From a virus: a stretch of DNA of 64,000 nucleotides. This document shows, one piece after another, positions 926 through 64,000 of the stretch. The notes beneath the pieces are model-generated. The model was not told the DNA's origin, made no database searches, and worked only from the letters and a program-made list of their open reading frames with translations. Every line of letters begins with the position of its first letter. Positions within the stretch are counted from its first letter, which is position 1. The translations under genes were made by a program, and so were the position numbers. The stretch lies in IMG/VR virus record IMGVR_UViG_3300043427_003220, positions 98,748 through 162,747 of that record. The stretch is one strand, 5' to 3'.

Positions 926-951
926 GCCTTAAGTCATGGAGGTTTAAGGCT

Positions 952-3900
952 GTGCTCAAATCATTCAAACAATTAACAAATGAATACGAAAGACTTAAAA
1001 AGTCAGAAGAATTCAAAGACTTAACTTCTGACGACTTACTAAATAAAGATATTATTCAAAGAATTCAGAAAAAGAGAGTCAATTCTAGCCCAAGCGAAAA
1101 AGAACAATTAGACTCTTATATTAAAAACGCTATGCAAAAAGCTCTTCTTAATACCTACCATGACCCTAAGTACCCAGAAAAGCTAGACATGGCATGGAGT
1201 AAATCTTCACTTGCTGACAATGCTCAGAGGGAGCTTGAAACATCTCCCCGCAACTGGCTGACAAAAACGTCAAGTGGCGAATACGATGTTGACACAAATA
1301 AACTTAAAGAGTCTCCTCTTTCTTTCTCTGCACTAAAACATATCAAAGACATGAGTCCTGAAAATGCCAAGAAGATTATGGAAAAACTTAAAGACTCTCC
1401 AGAGCTATCTGAGTCGCCGGCCAGAACAGCTAAAGCTGGTGCTATTAGCGAAATTGCTAAGTTTGCACCACTAGAGGCGCTATTCGACAAAGACTACACG
1501 CCATGGGGTGCTTATGCAGCTATTAAAGAAAAAACAAAAGACTTTACAGAACATCCAATATCATTAGACAAACTAAAAGAACTTCACGGTAAGCGTTATT
1601 ATGGCGACGATACGTCTTATGTTGGTAAAGTGCTGAGTAATTATGTTCTTTCTCATCCAGACACTCCTAAAGAAGACCTTTTAAGCCATATTCAAAATAA
1701 CTTTTCTCCATCTTCAGACGTATTAACTCACAAATCTCTAAGCCCCGAAGATATTAAGCACGCTGTACGTTTAAGGCTTGCAAACCAAAAAGGCGTTCTT
1801 GATAACTTAGAAGGTTTGAATACAAAAGAAAAAGTCGATAAAGGACTAGCAGTTCTTGAAGGGCTGCATGAATATGCAAAGACTAACCCCGGTATTCATC
1901 AAGATATGATTGACTACGGTCTTCACAAATTAGCTTTGAACAATGTTTCAGAAGAAGTAACAGAGCATGCTTTAAATAAGCTATTGGAAAGATATAATAA
2001 TAAAAACTATTTATCTAACGACCCTAAAGCTGCTGCCGCCATTAGGGGCAGCTTGGCCCACAGTATTAATAGTGTAATTCATCCAGACAGCCCTGCTTCG
2101 CAAAAAGTTTTGATTGAAATTGCCAAGGGAACTCATTCAATTAAAGACAAAACAGGAAAAATCAAAGAAAACGATTTGTTAGATAACATCTTAAATACAC
2201 GTCGTTTTAGGACAGACGGAAGTCAAAATTTTGTAAACGAAGTAAGACGACATGTTATTGAGTCTGGTCACGCGCCATCTATTCAAAGTATTTACAAGCA
2301 ATGGGGTTCGGCTTGGGGAGTTGAAAGCCAAAAAGCAGAACTAGAACATTTAACAAATAAGTTTGACGACAAGACACTCGCCAAAATTGTTCCTCATATG
2401 GATGCTGCTTTTTTAAGAAAACATGTATTTTCTAATCAAGAACTTTCTCAAAAGATTCTCCCACATCTTTCTTCGGCAGCAAAAGCCAAACTTGAAAAAG
2501 ACGGCGCTCTTGGTGGTATTTCTAAAGAAGACTCTCCTTTGAGTTTTTCTAGTAATACAGAGATGTTAAGAAAACTAAGAGACGTTGCCGAAGCAAATGG
2601 CGGCTCTATTAGTGCAAAACAATTAGGGCAGCATGGATTAAATGAAAATTCTTTAAAAATTACACACTTAAAAGACGCAAAAGGAAACTATACAAAAGAA
2701 GCTATCCAAAAGCACATCGACTCAATGCCCAAGCATAATTACGACTACTCTCATACGAGTTGGAAGGGCGCTCAAGTACACTCAAACGAAAAACAGTATG
2801 TGTTTCAGCTTAACCACAATGAAGACCTCCTTAATGAAATGAAGAATGCCGGTGTCTATGACACTTTTGCAAAGACACATGAGCTTTCTTTTAATAGTGA
2901 CCATCCAGTCAAAGACAATACGTTAGGATGGGTTAGGTATACTAAGGGCAAAGACGGGCACATCCACATAGACGAAATTCAAAGTGACTTGGGACGCAGT
3001 CTGCATGGGTCTATAAAAGAATACTTAGAAAAACAACCAGAATCTCCTAAAAAGAAAAAACTAGAAGAGCTGTTTTCAAAAGAAAAAATAGACAAAATGA
3101 ACGACATTTTGTTTAAAGGACAGCACCCATCAAAGATAATTCATGAAGGGTTTCTGCAGTTTTTAAGAAACAACGGTAATGTTGGTAAAGATATACATAT
3201 CTGGCAGGCAATGCCCAAGGCCAAGTTGGCAGGGCAAGATACTGTGGGCAATTTTAGTCTTAGAGGCTTCTCAGATAACATTGACTTTCATAAAAAAGTT
3301 GAAGCAAATAAACCGATTGAAGATTTTGATGCTGGAGAAATTGAACAGGCAGCAAGAGCTTTTATAGGGCCTGAAGAAACAATTAAGATATACGATAAAC
3401 ATGCGGTCTATAGTCCGGGTACAGCAACACAAGGGCCTGAAGAGATTGGTTTTAATTTAGAAAACTTCAAGAATGACGTTGTCAATCATCCTCTATACAA
3501 ACTTGCAATAAGCCACATCAAAGCACATGCCACTAATGACGATTTGGCTTCAGCCAGAGAACCATTAGAGGAAAATGCAAGTTTTGACGATAAGGTTTCT
3601 TATCCCTACACCATCAACGAACTTCCTGTACACATGAAGATTGGCTATCAAGAGCTACCGCCTAAGCTAGACTATACTCCAGACAGCTATGGCAAAATAC
3701 AGACACAAAAAACCAAGGATTTAAAAGACCAACCAACGTGGAAGACCAACTTAAGAAAGTCTCTCAAGGCACTCACTGCTGAATACGAGAGACTTAAAAA
3801 GGCTACGGACCCGTATGCTTATATAAATAATTTTGGATATTCTGACGAGTCCGACGACCTATACAATGACATAAGCGATGCTATTGACCATCACAATTTA

Positions 3901-23117: not shown

Positions 23118-24119
23118 TCAAAAATTATCGTAATCGTCATTAAAACCCATCGAACGCTGTTCTTTCTTTAGTCCACCCGATTCAGCCTTCTTACGTTGTA
23201 GTAGCACTTCAACCACCGCATCCGCAAGAGGAATATCATATAACTCATGCCGTAACACTGCTTCTTTGCTGTAAGCAGGAGTTAGCTTAGTTCCCACAAA
23301 CAACTGCTTCTCATCGGCAGTTAGTTCTCTATCCATAAACTTTTCTACAAGAAAAATAATTTCTTCGTCTTTTGGCGGCTCTACTTCACGGACGATGTCA
23401 AACCGTCCCGGTCTACTGGTCAAAGTTTTGTTCAATACATCTAGGTAGTTGGTTGTGGCTACAATCAAAGTAGGGATTTTGAATACATCTGCGTTGCCGT
23501 CCAAGAAGTTAAGCATCTCAGAATCAACACGGCCTGCTCTTTCTTCAAGGCCAGACCCGCCAATATCCTCTATAACCAAAAGAATCAAGCTGGCAGCCGA
23601 CTCTTGAGCATTTGAGAACATATCAATCAAAGTCTCAAAGCTGACTTGCTGAGAGTCTACTCTGAGAATGCAAGCCTTGGGCATCTTGATAATTTGGCGG
23701 CAAAAGTAGTTGATGAGGCTAGATTTACCAATCCCCGGTTCACTGCCGAACAAAAACCCTCTTTTGGGGGCAATCTTTCTTTTCTTGTAGATGTCCAGCT
23801 TAGACATAAAGACACTGAAGTGCTTCATGAGTTCTCTGGAGGTGTCTGTCTCGTAATACTGAATCTCTGTCAGTTCCATGGGCTGAAGACCCTCTTCAGG
23901 GGTAATACGCCATGCTCCTTCGGTAATCTTATAGGATTCTTTGGTCTTTGGTGTCTGAATGTCCATATCTAGCAGGTGAGGTTCTGATACCTTAACGACG
24001 TTTCCTAACTCATCTACAGACTCAATAGTCCTATTGACAACAAGCTGATAGTTGCCTAGCTCAACCTGTAAACCTGCCTGTAACTTAGTAATGCTCCGTA
24101 CTTTGGCTACTTTAGACAT
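23118..24119 (-). CDS. AAA+ ATPase
   Basis: 333 residues with a complete classical AAA module: Walker A GSEPGIGKSS, Walker B LLVIEDIGG, sensor-1 VATTN, and arginine-finger region SRPGRFD. The N-terminal 110 residues are a separate beta-rich domain. The SRPGRFD box is typical of proteasomal/FtsH/spastin-like ATPases rather than clamp loaders. It probably forms a hexamer that remodels a protein or nucleoprotein. GGAG lies five bases before the ATG. The partner is unknown. Confidence 0.88.
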   Translation of the reverse strand: MSKVAKVRSITKLQAGLQVELGNYQLVVNRTIESVDELGNVVKVSEPHLLDMDIQTPKTKESYKITEGAWRITPEEGLQPMELTEIQYYETDTSRELMKHFSVFMSKLDIYKKRKIAPKRGFLFGSEPGIGKSSLINYFCRQIIKMPKACILRVDSQQVSFETLIDMFSNAQESAASLILLVIEDIGGSGLEERAGRVDSEMLNFLDGNADVFKIPTLIVATTNYLDVLNKTLTSRPGRFDIVREVEPPKDEEIIFLVEKFMDRELTADEKQLFVGTKLTPAYSKEAVLRHELYDIPLADAVVEVLLQRKKAESGGLKKEQRSMGFNDDYDNF

Positions 24120-34894: not shown

Positions 34895-36508
34895 TTATCT
34901 TGTCTCCGTAATAAGAGACTTTAATTTACGCAACTCATCCATCTTTTGCAAATCTGCAGTCAAACTAAAGCAAGCGGTTGTACTACACATCGCAGCAAGC
35001 TCACAAGCATTGCGCAATACGCTCATGCAAGTTTCCGCCGCGTCGCAAACTTGTAAGTCCTTGTAGTGTCCTACCTTAACAGAGCCGTCTTCCTGTACAG
35101 CGTAAGTCTCGTTCTCTTTACGGGGCGGGACTTTGGCGCCAAGATTCTCGAACACTTTATCGGTGACAGCAGATAGGGCTTGAACAAGGTTTTCAGGCAA
35201 TCCACAAGCCAATGCGGCCTGTTGGTACATGACGCCACACCCAGGTACAATGCCACCTCTTCTTGCCGCCTGAGCCGCTTTAATAGCATCATCGACTCGG
35301 TCAGCTCGCTCTTGTACTGCAGCAGCATGGCCAGCGCCAACGACGATAGTAACTAGCCCCTCAGTCAACTCAGCATTACGGGCAGCGATTACGTCCTTAT
35401 CAAAAGCAGAACGAGCAGCTTCCATAGCGTTGATATTTTGTTGAGCACGCTTGGGGATAAAGTGATTCTTGTTGCGACCATGTAGAACTGTCTTATAAGG
35501 GTGAACAACTACATGATTGCAAGTACCCAAGTTTTCTACCTTAGCACGACCATAAGAAGCACCGTCAAAGATTTCAGCGTTAGTGATAGCAGCGATGTCC
35601 ATGAGAATTTGCATGCCGCTATTGAATTCGGCAGTCTGGCGTACCTTGGAAACAAAAATACTAACTTTGCCAGCATACTTACGATTTACAGGGATCAACT
35701 CATTACAGACGCTTTCGGCCACGTCGTAAGCAAAAACTAAAAGAGTAAATCTGTTATTTGTCTTGATGCCCAAATCAGTTACAGCCGCGTTGAGCTGCTC
35801 TAGTGAATGAATCTCGCCGTTATACAGAAAAATATAGGGTTTTTCCATTTGAAAAGGAAGATTTTCGCCTACCTTGTCCGAACAACTCATAGCCAAGGTG
35901 GGATGATGATTGTAGCCACGGCCGGCATTGTACCCATCTTGTAGTTCAACTTTATAGCGCTCTTTAGCTGCTACATTCTTTTCAACGAGAATAGTGCCAT
36001 GAACGCTGGTCTTATTAAGAGCTTCCATAACGGAATTAACAATTTCCATATCGCCATTTGATGACGTTTTAGCTACCATGGCGACCGCTTCTGGGTCTTT
36101 AACTGCATTTTCTCGAATGTAGTCGATACAATCCTCAATGTGATGTTCAACCTGACGAGCATAAGCTTGCGGAGCGGCTGCATTTTTTTCTTTGATTGCT
36201 TTAGCCAAAGCCGCGCTAAGGACAAGAGTTGAAGTTGTGCCGTCCCCAGACTCCAAAACAGAATGATTAGCGGCCTGTTTAGCAAAGTAATGCACCGCGT
36301 GTTTGATTGGGTCTGTAAACTGCATCCAGCTGATGGTGGTTACCCCGTCTTTGGTGACGGTTGGTTGCATCTCACCCATTTGATTTGGCTTGTCAAATAT
36401 AACCGGTAAACCCGCTGGCCCTAAAGTTGACCCGACAGCCTCTGCGATTTCCTGCAAAGCATCTACCGCCATATCGCGGGCTTGTTTACCTACGACTAAT
36501 TGTTTCAT
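34895..36508 (-). CDS. groEL: GroEL-type chaperonin
   Basis: 537 residues, close to bacterial GroEL (about 548). ATP-site blocks are conserved: STLGPAG, VTKDGVTT, SGDGTTST and DRVDDAIKAAQAARRGG with GIVPGCG (GroEL has GGG). The apical region is divergent and the Gly/Met C-terminal tail is missing. Jumbo-phage chaperonins of this kind fold phage proteins, some without a GroES partner, and none is seen here. The start overlaps the upstream stop. Confidence 0.93.
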   Translation of the reverse strand: MKQLVVGKQARDMAVDALQEIAEAVGSTLGPAGLPVIFDKPNQMGEMQPTVTKDGVTTISWMQFTDPIKHAVHYFAKQAANHSVLESGDGTTSTLVLSAALAKAIKEKNAAAPQAYARQVEHHIEDCIDYIRENAVKDPEAVAMVAKTSSNGDMEIVNSVMEALNKTSVHGTILVEKNVAAKERYKVELQDGYNAGRGYNHHPTLAMSCSDKVGENLPFQMEKPYIFLYNGEIHSLEQLNAAVTDLGIKTNNRFTLLVFAYDVAESVCNELIPVNRKYAGKVSIFVSKVRQTAEFNSGMQILMDIAAITNAEIFDGASYGRAKVENLGTCNHVVVHPYKTVLHGRNKNHFIPKRAQQNINAMEAARSAFDKDVIAARNAELTEGLVTIVVGAGHAAAVQERADRVDDAIKAAQAARRGGIVPGCGVMYQQAALACGLPENLVQALSAVTDKVFENLGAKVPPRKENETYAVQEDGSVKVGHYKDLQVCDAAETCMSVLRNACELAAMCSTTACFSLTADLQKMDELRKLKSLITETR

Positions 36509-60042: not shown

Positions 60043-61578
60043 ATGAGCACTGGTTATCAGTTTGTAGGCCAGCAAGACTTGGCCAAAATTAGAGAACGCC
60101 TTGAGCGCATGGCTAAGTCGTTCAACGCCATCGGTTATCAAGGTATGCAGAACGCTGGCCGTACAGGCATCAGCGCCCTTACTATTGACTCCGCTGACCC
60201 TGTAATGTACGCAATCTGCGCGCAGGAAAAGCAGCTCAAGTTGATGAAGAACGTCAAAACCCTTAAAGCTACCCAGCCTGTTTACTTCTATAAAGTACAG
60301 ACTGCTATCGTTACTCAAGGTCTTGACCTTGCTGGCTTTGAAAACTTCATGCCACAAGAAGACCAAGCTCAGTACGAACAAGTTGCTGAACCGCTCAAAA
60401 TCTATGGTATTAAGAAGACTCTTGGTGACATGGTTCGCCTAACTAACGAAGCAGGCGGCTTCTTCGACGGTATCGACATTGAAAAAGAAAATGAGCGCAA
60501 CGCTGCTATGGCTCTTTCAACACAGTTTGAGCGCGACGGCTACGCTGGCGGTGACTACTATGTTGACGCTGCTGGTCAAATCGACGTTGAAACTCCCTTG
60601 AAATTCCTTGGCAACCGCCGCATCCCAGCTATCCGTCAGCTTCGTGGTGTTCAGAACAATATCCGCGAAGGCGAGCGCGCTACTCGTGGTGTCACGCCTG
60701 ACTTTGCTGCTTATGGAAACTCCTTCTCCGTCGTTCAGGACCTCAAGGGCAAGGCTCTTGACCAAGAAGTTCTTGATGATACAACCACTGCAGTTGTTTC
60801 TAACGCAGGTGAAGTTTCAGAAGCTCACGCTACTCCAGCTCAAATTGCTGAGTTCCGTAAGACTTTCTTCGGCCTTCAGCGCGGCGACATCGCTCAGAAC
60901 TTTGCAATCCGTGGACCAGACCTCAGCAACGCTGAAGAAGGTGGATTTGCAATTATGTCTGTTAGCGGTCTAGTTAAGTTCATTCCTGCTATCTATAAGC
61001 ACTCTGTTCGTCAGAAGGCTCTTCCAGTGTCAGGAACTAACGGCGTACCTCCTTCAACTCCAGTTATCGCTGCAGCTAACCTCACAGTTGGTTCAGTTGG
61101 TTCAGAACTCAAGATTGGCGACAAAGTCAAGTTCTTGGTTCAGGCTACCTCAATCTTCGGCATCAGCTCACCAGCTATGTCCGGCGAACTTACCGTTACT
61201 GTTGATGGACAGGGCGTTGACCTCTCTATCGCTGCTCAGGCCGACGCTGAAGCGTTCATGGTCTTTATGACTCCACGCGAAGCTGCTGGTAAGGCTGGTT
61301 CAGAAGGATTCGTTGGTAAGGTCGTCAAGGCCGCTTCCGGCGCAACTGCATTCAAATATACTGGCGCAGTAATGCCAGGCTATGAAAGCGTACTCTTCAT
61401 GCCTTCAAGCGAAGACCGCGTTAAGCTTGCAGTTCTTGGTAACCTCCTCAACAAGTCTGACCTTGGTCGTCAGGGCTTGGCTCTTGAGAGCGTGTTCAGC
61501 TCGTACTTGGCTGTTGTACTTCATAAGCCACGTTCGTTCGCTGTTCTTGACAACGTCAAGCAACGTCGTCGCATCTAA
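60043..61578 (+). CDS. major capsid protein
   Basis: 511 residues. AGAGGAG lies nine bases before the ATG; codon choice is uniformly of the highly expressed kind, and the gene is bounded by its own leader and a UUCG terminator, as expected for the most abundant virion protein. The chain reads as HK97-type: a helical N-terminus, a mixed core, and an immunoglobulin-like insertion (about 340-410). The spine segment PGYESVLFMPS and the end SYLAVVLHKPRSFAVLDNVK fit such capsids. Identification is by context and overall style, not by search. Confidence 0.75.
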   Translation: MSTGYQFVGQQDLAKIRERLERMAKSFNAIGYQGMQNAGRTGISALTIDSADPVMYAICAQEKQLKLMKNVKTLKATQPVYFYKVQTAIVTQGLDLAGFENFMPQEDQAQYEQVAEPLKIYGIKKTLGDMVRLTNEAGGFFDGIDIEKENERNAAMALSTQFERDGYAGGDYYVDAAGQIDVETPLKFLGNRRIPAIRQLRGVQNNIREGERATRGVTPDFAAYGNSFSVVQDLKGKALDQEVLDDTTTAVVSNAGEVSEAHATPAQIAEFRKTFFGLQRGDIAQNFAIRGPDLSNAEEGGFAIMSVSGLVKFIPAIYKHSVRQKALPVSGTNGVPPSTPVIAAANLTVGSVGSELKIGDKVKFLVQATSIFGISSPAMSGELTVTVDGQGVDLSIAAQADAEAFMVFMTPREAAGKAGSEGFVGKVVKAASGATAFKYTGAVMPGYESVLFMPSSEDRVKLAVLGNLLNKSDLGRQGLALESVFSSYLAVVLHKPRSFAVLDNVKQRRRI

Positions 61579-61600
61579 TCTTTTGATTAGATTTACAGAA

Positions 61601-61627
61601 AACCACCCTTCGGGGTGGTTTTTTTTA
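61601..61627 (+). terminator. strong Rho-independent terminator with UUCG loop
   Basis: AACCACCC (61601-61608), TTCG, GGGTGGTT (61613-61620) and a T run to 61627. A textbook terminator after the capsid gene. Confidence 0.95.
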
Positions 61628-61918: not shown

Positions 61919-62281
61919 ATGAAAACCGATGTAATTTTTAAAAAATATACAGATTTTTGCATTTATCAGCCAAATGAAATTGTCCAAGCGACTATCAATG
62001 GCGCGGGACCTGCAAAAAGGGGTGAGTGGGTAAGAGATACTTTATTTTATAAATTTACAGTCACCGATGCAGCAAATGTTCATGATTTTTTATATTCAAA
62101 ATATGGCCTTAAAGAAGTTAGTCGTAAACAGGCAGACGGTCTGTTTCTGTCCATGATGTTAAAAAAGCTAAAAAAACAAAATAAAAAATCTAAAATTTTA
62201 AACAAACCATTAGTTTATATGTATTATTTTGCTGTTAGATTGTTTGGGGGTTTTTTTTGGGAAAAAACAAAGATTGATTAA
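61919..62281 (+). CDS. hypothetical protein, 120 aa
   Basis: AGGAAAG precedes the ATG. A folded N-terminal part (YTDFCIYQPNEIVQATINGAG) leads to a basic Lys-rich stretch (MLKKLKKQNKKSKILNK) and an aromatic C-terminus (YMYYFAVRLFGGFFWEK) that may touch a membrane. A/T-rich like its upstream neighbour. Function unknown. Confidence 0.55.
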   Translation: MKTDVIFKKYTDFCIYQPNEIVQATINGAGPAKRGEWVRDTLFYKFTVTDAANVHDFLYSKYGLKEVSRKQADGLFLSMMLKKLKKQNKKSKILNKPLVYMYYFAVRLFGGFFWEKTKID

Positions 62282-62333: not shown

Positions 62334-63119
62334 ATGGCTAACGTAGCAACACTTGCAACCTTAGCAGATTCCAAAGCTTCTCAAAAAGCAGGTCAAGCAT
62401 CATTTTTTATGCCTACAGGCGTAATTTTACCCTTTTCAGGACAATCTGGAGTTCCAACGGGATGGCTTCTCTGCGATGGTACAGCATATAATCAAGCTGA
62501 TTATCCAGAATTGTATGCTCTTTTAGGAAATCTTTATAATACACAAATAAATCCAACTACAGGAGCTGCGTGGGTAGCTCCTTCAGCTGGACAATTCAGA
62601 GTACCAGATCACAGAGCTGTTTTTTTAAGAGGAGAGGGGACTCCATCTGTAGGAGATGCCGTAACTACAGGCGGCTGGCAAGCACAAAAAACAGCTAAAA
62701 ATGGACTAAGTGCAGCTTCTGTTTCAGTAACTGTTTCTGGTCTAAAAAATCAAATGAATGGAGGCACTGGAAATAACTCTGCCGGCCATTCGCATACCGT
62801 AGGAGAAAGCGGAGCACATAGCCATACATATTACGATTGGTCATATTGCTCTCAGTCATATGGCAACTGGGGATGGAGAGGTTCAGGAGCAGGTGAAGAT
62901 ACTGACAATGCTCCAGGTTCTGAAGGAGGAAGAGCTACAGATTATGGCGGATATCATGACCATACTATAGGCGGTGACACTGGCTCTCATACTCATAGTT
63001 GGAACTTTGGCACTACTGCAACCTTTAGTGCATCTGGAACAGTAGCTGCTCAAACTATTTCAGGCGATAACGAGACAAGACCTAGTAATAAAGGTGTTAA
63101 TTATATTATTAAAGTTTAA
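62334..63119 (+). CDS. tail-collar-domain fibre protein, copy 1
   Basis: 261 residues, with AAAAGGAG before the ATG. The phage tail collar domain is clear (GWLLCDGTAYNQADYPELYALLG, then QFRVPDHRAVFLRG). A Gly/Ser-rich C-terminal half has spaced His-x-His motifs (HSHT twice, HDHT, HTHS), which in T4 long-fibre tips bind iron. The C-terminal 37 residues and the DNA around the gene join are shared with the next copy. It likely binds the host receptor. Confidence 0.9.
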   Translation: MANVATLATLADSKASQKAGQASFFMPTGVILPFSGQSGVPTGWLLCDGTAYNQADYPELYALLGNLYNTQINPTTGAAWVAPSAGQFRVPDHRAVFLRGEGTPSVGDAVTTGGWQAQKTAKNGLSAASVSVTVSGLKNQMNGGTGNNSAGHSHTVGESGAHSHTYYDWSYCSQSYGNWGWRGSGAGEDTDNAPGSEGGRATDYGGYHDHTIGGDTGSHTHSWNFGTTATFSASGTVAAQTISGDNETRPSNKGVNYIIKV

Positions 63120-63184
63120 AAATAATAATTTTTAATCAATTTTTAAAAGGAGAAACAAATGGCTAACGTAGCAACACTTGCAAC
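63006..63184 (+). repeat. near-identical block joining fibre gene copies 1 and 2
   Basis: From 63006 to the first 26 bases of the next gene, the DNA matches 63834 onward with a period of 828 bp. It covers the shared fibre C-terminus, the identical 39-base intergenic region (63120-63158) and the next start. It is a ready substrate for homologous recombination. Confidence 0.9.
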
Positions 63185-63947
63185 TTTAGCGGATTTTAAA
63201 GCTTCTCGACGAGCCGGCGGCAACTCATCCCTTGTACCTTCCGGCGTTGTACTTCCGTATGCAGTATCAACCCCTCCCGCCGGATGGCTTCTCTGCGATG
63301 GTACAGCATATAATCAAGCTGATTATCCAGAATTGTATGCCGCATTGGGTACTCTTTATAATACACAAATAAATCCAACTACAGGAGCTGCCTATACGGC
63401 CCCTTCAGCTGGACAATTCAGAGTTCCAGATTATAGAGCTATATTTTTAAGAGGAGCTGGAACTCCATCTGTAGGAGATGCCGTAACTACAGGTGGATGG
63501 CAAGCACAAAAAACAGCTAAAAATGGACTAAGTGCAGCTTCTGTTTCAGCAACTACTTCTGGTCTAAAAAATCAAATGAATGGAAGCACTGGAACTCTCA
63601 GCGGCGCTCATGGGCATTCAAGTACGGGCTCGGGCGGATATCATGGCCATACATATTACGATTGGTCGTGGAGTTCCCAAGCATATGCCAACTGGGGATG
63701 GAGAGGTTCAGGAGCAGGTGAAGATACTGACAATGCTCCAGGAAATAATGCAGCTAGAACTACATCAAGTTTAGGCCATCACACACATTCTGCTTTTAAT
63801 ACTGATGCTTATACCCATGCTCATAGTTGGGATTTTGGCACTACTGCAACCTTTAGTGCATCTGGAACAGTAGCTGCTCAAACTATTTCAGGCGATAACG
63901 AGACAAGACCTAGTAATAAAGGTGTTAATTATATTATTAAAGTTTAA
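63159..63947 (+). CDS. tail-collar-domain fibre protein, copy 2
   Basis: 262 residues, paralogous to copy 1 with the same collar domain and C-terminus but a different central tip region; His-x-His motifs are HGHS, HGHT, HTHS and HAHS. The variable middle flanked by constant ends suggests receptor-binding diversification. The ribosome site and start context are the same as copy 1. A third copy begins at 63987. Confidence 0.9.
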   Translation: MANVATLATLADFKASRRAGGNSSLVPSGVVLPYAVSTPPAGWLLCDGTAYNQADYPELYAALGTLYNTQINPTTGAAYTAPSAGQFRVPDYRAIFLRGAGTPSVGDAVTTGGWQAQKTAKNGLSAASVSATTSGLKNQMNGSTGTLSGAHGHSSTGSGGYHGHTYYDWSWSSQAYANWGWRGSGAGEDTDNAPGNNAARTTSSLGHHTHSAFNTDAYTHAHSWDFGTTATFSASGTVAAQTISGDNETRPSNKGVNYIIKV

Positions 63948-64000
63948 AAATAATAATTTTTAATCAATTTTTAAAAGGAGAAACAAATGGCTAACGTAGC
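63834..64000 (+). repeat. near-identical block joining fibre gene copies 2 and 3
   Basis: Second instance of the 828-bp periodic block. It includes the 39-base intergenic copy at 63948-63986 and the start of a third gene, and is cut by the window edge. Confidence 0.85.
63987..64000 (+). CDS. tail-collar-domain fibre protein, copy 3 (start only)
   Basis: ATG at 63987 after an identical AAAAGGAG and spacer; the visible codons read M-A-N-V as in copies 1 and 2. Only 14 bases lie in the window, so the identity rests on the repeat context. Confidence 0.7.

Follow-up and report, generated by a model that had tools for sequence, protein, structure and literature searches.

A 162,747-bp viral contig carries three tandem genes for short collar-type fibre proteins, which we read, at a probability of about two in three and from their sequences, as an accessory receptor-binding cassette in which recombination keeps the frames alike and moves variable segments. 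The region analysed, referred to here as the window, comprises the last 64 kb of the contig (positions 98,748 to 162,747), and the features discussed below are collected in Table 1.

The window holds two complete open reading frames of this kind, A and B; a third, C, is present there with its first 14 bases only. The first-pass annotation had described a tandem repeat of two complete collar genes and the start of another, and the reading frames, the periods of 825 and 828 bp and the Pfam Collar matches bear this out. Its description of the third gene as only a start holds for the window, where C is cut merely by the end of the contig; the complete gene lies at the opposite end (contig 114–905), and a convergent ClpX-like gene comes next (contig 930–1862). 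Both contig ends fall within the array and the first 127 bases of the contig match its last 127 exactly. This overlap, together with the intact C at the other end, gives an array of three intact genes in the order A–B–C, encoding proteins of 261–263 aa and lying between a chaperone-like ORF and the ClpX-like gene. The same AT-rich spacer sequence follows each gene, with the A–B and B–C spacers identical, and A and B share repeat blocks of 300 nt at 90 %, 131 nt at 83 % and 185 nt at 98 % identity, including an exact repeat of 167 bp, far above chance.

Table 1. Features of the fibre array and its left flank, in window coordinates unless the contig is named
Feature	Position	Strand	Basis
Gene A, collar-type fibre protein, 261 aa, first in array	62334–63119	+	ORF; Pfam Collar 2.2e-12
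Gene B, collar-type fibre protein, 262 aa, second in array	63159–63947	+	ORF; Pfam Collar 3.4e-15
Gene C, start; full 263-aa gene at contig 114–905	63987–64000	+	127-bp end overlap; Pfam Collar
A–B spacer, AT-rich, with ribosome-binding site, same as B–C spacer	63120–63158	+	Sequence
B–C spacer with ribosome-binding site	63948–63986	+	Sequence
Exact 167-bp repeat, copy 1: end of A, spacer and start of B	63006–63172	+	Repeat comparison
Exact 167-bp repeat, copy 2; its last 127 bases (63874–64000) equal the contig's first 127	63834–64000	+	Repeat comparison
VR1 of A, variable; residues 17–42, between N-terminal anchor and collar	62382–62459	+	Per-block divergence
VR3 of A, variable; residues 147–161, around HxH pair 1	62772–62816	+	Alignment and per-block divergence
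VR4 of A, variable; residues 196–218, around HxH pair 3	62919–62987	+	Alignment and per-block divergence
VR1 of B, variable segment	63207–63281	+	Per-block divergence
VR3 of B, variable segment	63594–63641	+	Per-block divergence
VR4 of B, variable segment	63744–63815	+	Per-block divergence
Left flank, chaperone-like/DUF1353-like ORF, retained in relatives without fibre genes	61919–62281	+	Profile matches and relatives
Left flank, major head protein, query for finding relatives	60043–61578	+	PHROG 752
Terminator-like hairpin after major head protein gene	61597–61624		

An array whose ends coincide with the ends of a contig invites the suspicion that fewer genes are real and that the assembler joined alleles of a single gene that coexist in a mixed population, the more so as the 127-bp end overlap resembles an assembler k-mer. 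That overlap does fit a k-mer overlap, and because the same spacer and start region is also found between A and B, the assembler probably halted at an ambiguous repeat. Alleles of a single gene would have both flanks in common, but here the flanks differ: unique DNA precedes A on the left and follows C on the right, and B is bounded by array spacer at either end. The relatives described below, moreover, show the left and right flanks as neighbours; L044 and L046 have the chaperone-like ORF immediately next to clpX, so that in this lineage the two ends of the present contig lie side by side, and joining them through the array is consistent with that order. An artefact of this type is therefore very unlikely, and the question of whether A, B and C are alleles of a single-copy gene appears, from their distinct flanks, to be largely answered in the negative, with other copy numbers possible in some genomes. 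The first-pass annotation had named a single, misassembled copy as the finding that would refute it, and flank differences and synteny alike disfavour that outcome.

The A and B proteins are 77 % identical, and all three copies match tail-fibre PHROGs and the Pfam Collar domain (PF07484) with scores of 47–59 bits against a cut-off of 24 (E 2e-12 to 5e-16). A profile of 13 sequences finds T4 gp12 (E 3.6e-9) and the receptor-binding tip of T4 gp37 (E 1.4e-7). The match to the gp37 structure (2xgf) runs over positions 16–253, that to gp12 (1ocy) falls in two stretches, at the start and at the end, and the C-terminal motif ETRPxNxxxNYIIK corresponds to the strand (254–261) with which an AlphaFold2 model closes the collar; together these point to a needle inserted in the collar. 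The monomer model is confident for the collar and closing strand only, with pLDDT below 50 at residues 122–244, and the best Foldseek matches (T4 gp12 in the baseplate, the tail fibre of cyanophage A-1(L) and T4 gp37) have low TM-scores, as the model leaves the needle unresolved. In T4 gp37 the needle is likewise an insertion into the collar, and its histidines coordinate iron (PMC6957217).

Judged by these matches, A, B and C are short fibre proteins with the collar layout of T4 gp37 and gp12, and presumably trimeric. They share with the gp37 tip (PDB 2XGF) and gp12 (1OCY) a Collar closed by a C-terminal strand and an insertion that bears HxH pairs, but are much shorter, have an anchor of their own of about 16 residues, lack a long shaft and occur as three tandem copies. 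Four HxH pairs, known from sequence, compare with seven irons in gp37. The pairs are invariant in A, B and C within otherwise variable segments and are candidate metal-binding pairs; by analogy, the distal tip is presumed to lie between pairs 2 and 3, at residues 165–207.

Alignment of the three copies reveals variable segments at residues 17–42, 147–161 and 196–218, plus a small one at 93–101. Within the presumed distal tip, residues 168–195 are conserved and only the last part is variable, so that most of the variation flanks the tip. It had been claimed that the His-rich tip regions differ: this is half right, as the last part of the presumed tip does vary, but the HxH pairs do not and most of the variation lies outside the tip. 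The companion claim, that the ends and intergenic DNA are identical, stands for the spacers and nearly so for the last 43 codons (95–98 % identical among copies), but at the 5′ end full identity of the three copies is limited to some 31 bases that begin just upstream of the ribosome-binding site.

Silent-site divergence was determined block by block, and the three larger variable segments were compared with the conserved blocks (residues 43–92, 102–146, 162–195 and 219–261) by a one-sided Fisher test. Silent differences between A and B occupy 30/50 sites in the variable segments against 17/122 in the conserved blocks (p 3e-9), with corresponding values of 25/48 and 16/121 for A and C (p 4e-7) and 36/52 and 10/122 for B and C (p 5e-16); divergence thus ranges over 52–69 % of silent sites in the former and 8–14 % in the latter. 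Nonsynonymous change in the variable segments is high as well. Along the alignment the agreeing pair switches in blocks, with B matching C at columns 62–66, A matching C at 79–82 and B again matching C at 172–177. This agreement is clustered, forming 78 runs where 107 are expected, a degree of clustering reached in 0 of 20,000 shuffles (p 0.001 when each codon carries a single label).

The conserved frames, the invariant HxH pairs and the high nonsynonymous change would all be in keeping with an old duplication followed by divergence without recombination, in which purifying selection held the conserved blocks while exposed loops drifted or underwent diversifying point mutation. That history would not by itself account for silent sites that are almost saturated with change in the variable segments while few differ in the conserved blocks, for a non-coding spacer that is identical, or for the clustering of shared variants, since purifying selection at the protein level alone does not readily produce this silent-site pattern together with an identical spacer; we consider it unlikely. 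Modular silent divergence and clustered shared variants imply a recombinant history of the copies, and the sequences thus point to recombination, not point mutation of recent duplicates, as the source of the divergence. The mosaic analysis covers three copies on one contig. Three sequences fit either direction, in that the frames may have been homogenised or the segments imported, and the recombination could be ancient, or could have taken place between phages instead of within the array.

The confinement of variation to short segments of adhesin-type genes is also what a dedicated variation system, either a diversity-generating retroelement or an invertible segment, would be expected to leave, but such an origin is hardly credible here. 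No PF00078 (reverse transcriptase) match was found in the 162.7-kb contig by a search that was positive in control genomes, and no second copy of the array sequence is available as a template, the rest of the contig having yielded neither donor cassettes nor further copies; a retroelement was rejected on these two grounds. Length changes and silent changes run throughout the variable segments. An invertible cassette of the Mu/P1 type was set aside as well, since the copies are direct repeats and no sizeable inverted repeats surround the fibre genes.

The major head protein is distant from those of named phages (23 % identity to Myxococcus phage Mx1 and 22 % to Bacteroides phage SJC03). Four records carry a head protein 97–98 % identical to it (L044, L045, L046 and L047), of which L046 and L047 give the same matches at the locus and may be one phage. 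The site is without a fibre gene in L044, L046 and L047. L045 has a single fibre, 85 % identical to A over its first 60 bases but with a different body; it also retains a frameshifted, 5′-truncated fibre remnant fused to the 3′ end of clpX, in the orientation opposite to the array (L045:4446–4868, minus strand). A further record, L062 (clpX 92 %), ends 200 bp past clpX in the same kind of remnant (L062:9916–10115, plus strand). Over 103 bp the two remnants are 89 % identical, beyond which they have nothing in common; the break falls just after GGHQxGKTAKNGL, which is homologous to GGWQAQKTAKNGL of A, B and C and lies slightly upstream of the point at which A, B and C diverge. With 0, 1 or 3 fibre genes at the site among these relatives and the present contig, the locus is, on sequence comparison, a hotspot where fibre genes come and go and segments change among close relatives.

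The chaperone-like ORF is unlikely to be a dedicated fibre chaperone, as it is retained by the fibre-less L044 and L046. The sequence AATGTTAAAATT precedes the first fibre here as well as in L045, but was rejected as a shared promoter because its frequency in the window is no higher than chance and promoter-like sites are not enriched. The ClpX-like AAA+ ATPase (contig 930–1862, minus strand) has no obvious protease partner adjoining and keeps the same position in close relatives. Elsewhere the window encodes a GroEL-type chaperonin (34895–36508, minus strand; Pfam Cpn60_TCP1, E 1e-25).

Beyond the close relatives, a search for DNA resembling the start of the array gave 0 matches in a record set from which near relatives may be absent, and a scan of bacterial genomes found distant collar proteins only. 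Four distant uncultured phages (L004, L005, L143 and L144) have two or three short collar-fibre genes adjoining or nearly so, and L144 shares the N-terminal anchor MANVALLATIADLKASQ with the array, but their copies are far more diverged and lack a long homogenised repeat. An AAA ATPase (Pfam AAA) of about 340 aa adjoins collar-fibre genes in three phages (L004:9246–10274, minus strand; L045:3344–4375, minus strand; L144:6297–7298, plus strand); a similar ATPase of the present contig lies far from the array (window 23118–24119, minus strand), where the ClpX-like AAA gene adjoins the fibres instead. In L143 an ORF that looks homing-endonuclease-like by eye directly follows two collar-fibre genes (L143:8115–8657, plus strand).

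The position of the array raises the question of what the fibres do. It adjoins a head gene and not other fibre genes, which counts against the receptor-binding reading, and a second fibre locus near contig 71.7 kb (L148:1–2667) encodes a long fibre with a collar-like C-terminus ending in DIRPKYFSVVYLMRV, so the array is not the only adhesin candidate of this phage. The 201-aa gene that follows the long fibre has the same ending and is perhaps another product of tandem duplication. Given this arrangement, and a site that is empty in close relatives and hence dispensable, the proteins might decorate the virion, form fibres of the head or neck, or bind surfaces in general, in place of serving as tail fibres for a host receptor. 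Their best matches, however, are the receptor-binding parts of T4 tail fibres, and gene position is weakly informative for position in the virion, which leaves such a role unlikely. Because the presumed distal tip is mostly conserved, the variable parts may not be the receptor contact. The first-pass annotation had proposed a receptor-binding diversification cassette, and part of this survives in the tandem collar fibres, the mosaic recombinational history and the gain and loss of fibres among relatives; what needs amending is that the variable parts are not simply the tip.

In the accessory cassette that we favour, each fibre would combine a common type of N-terminal anchor, a collar core and a C-terminus with differing segments around the needle and tip. 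Homologous recombination within the conserved blocks, by gene conversion or crossing-over, would act within one genome or with co-infecting relatives, probably via the phage's own UvsX/SbcCD-type proteins; UvsX-, SbcC-, SbcD-, primase- and DnaB-like proteins are encoded in the window. By keeping the frames alike and moving variable segments, it would yield virions with alternative or mixed adhesins, while crossing-over between the long repeats would allow whole genes to be gained or deleted with the frame intact. More tentatively, and with rather less confidence than half, the array might be a permanent store of several adhesin genes, maintained as a reservoir for recombination: gene conversion would hold the frames uniform so that segments can be swapped and whole units gained or lost in frame, and mixed fibres would be displayed on virions.

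Several elements of this scheme have been described in other phages. In T4 and the Xanthomonas oryzae phages OP1, Xp10 and Xop411, duplication and loss of tail-fibre domains have been linked to host range and repeats suggested as the sites of recombination (PMC2248197); there the domains are duplicated inside one gene, whereas the unit repeated in the array is an entire gene, complete with start, stop and spacer. A variable-number tandem duplication arises in a fibre gene of Enterococcus phage EfV12-phi1 during coevolution with its host, but as a 1.8-kb in-frame duplication inside one gene, with no diversity in sequence observed among its copies, unlike the complete genes and diverged segments seen here (PMC6365445). 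The mosaicism and modular exchange between phages known for T4-type tail-fibre genes were described between genomes, while in the array mosaicism is found also among paralogues of one genome (PMC2993671). The literature searched, with partial coverage, contained no direct precedent for complete collar-fibre genes repeated in tandem and homogenised in this way. Duplication and recombination of fibres are already known, and the whole-gene tandem set is a less common layout.

If the reading is true, some large phages maintain a row of adhesin genes that can stand in for one another, in place of point mutation or a retroelement. Assemblies from short reads are interrupted by arrays of this kind, as the present contig is by ending in its own, and host-range variation may be missed in metagenomes as a result. 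The array also makes it testable whether variable segments are exchanged among copies and among phages where conserved blocks begin and end.
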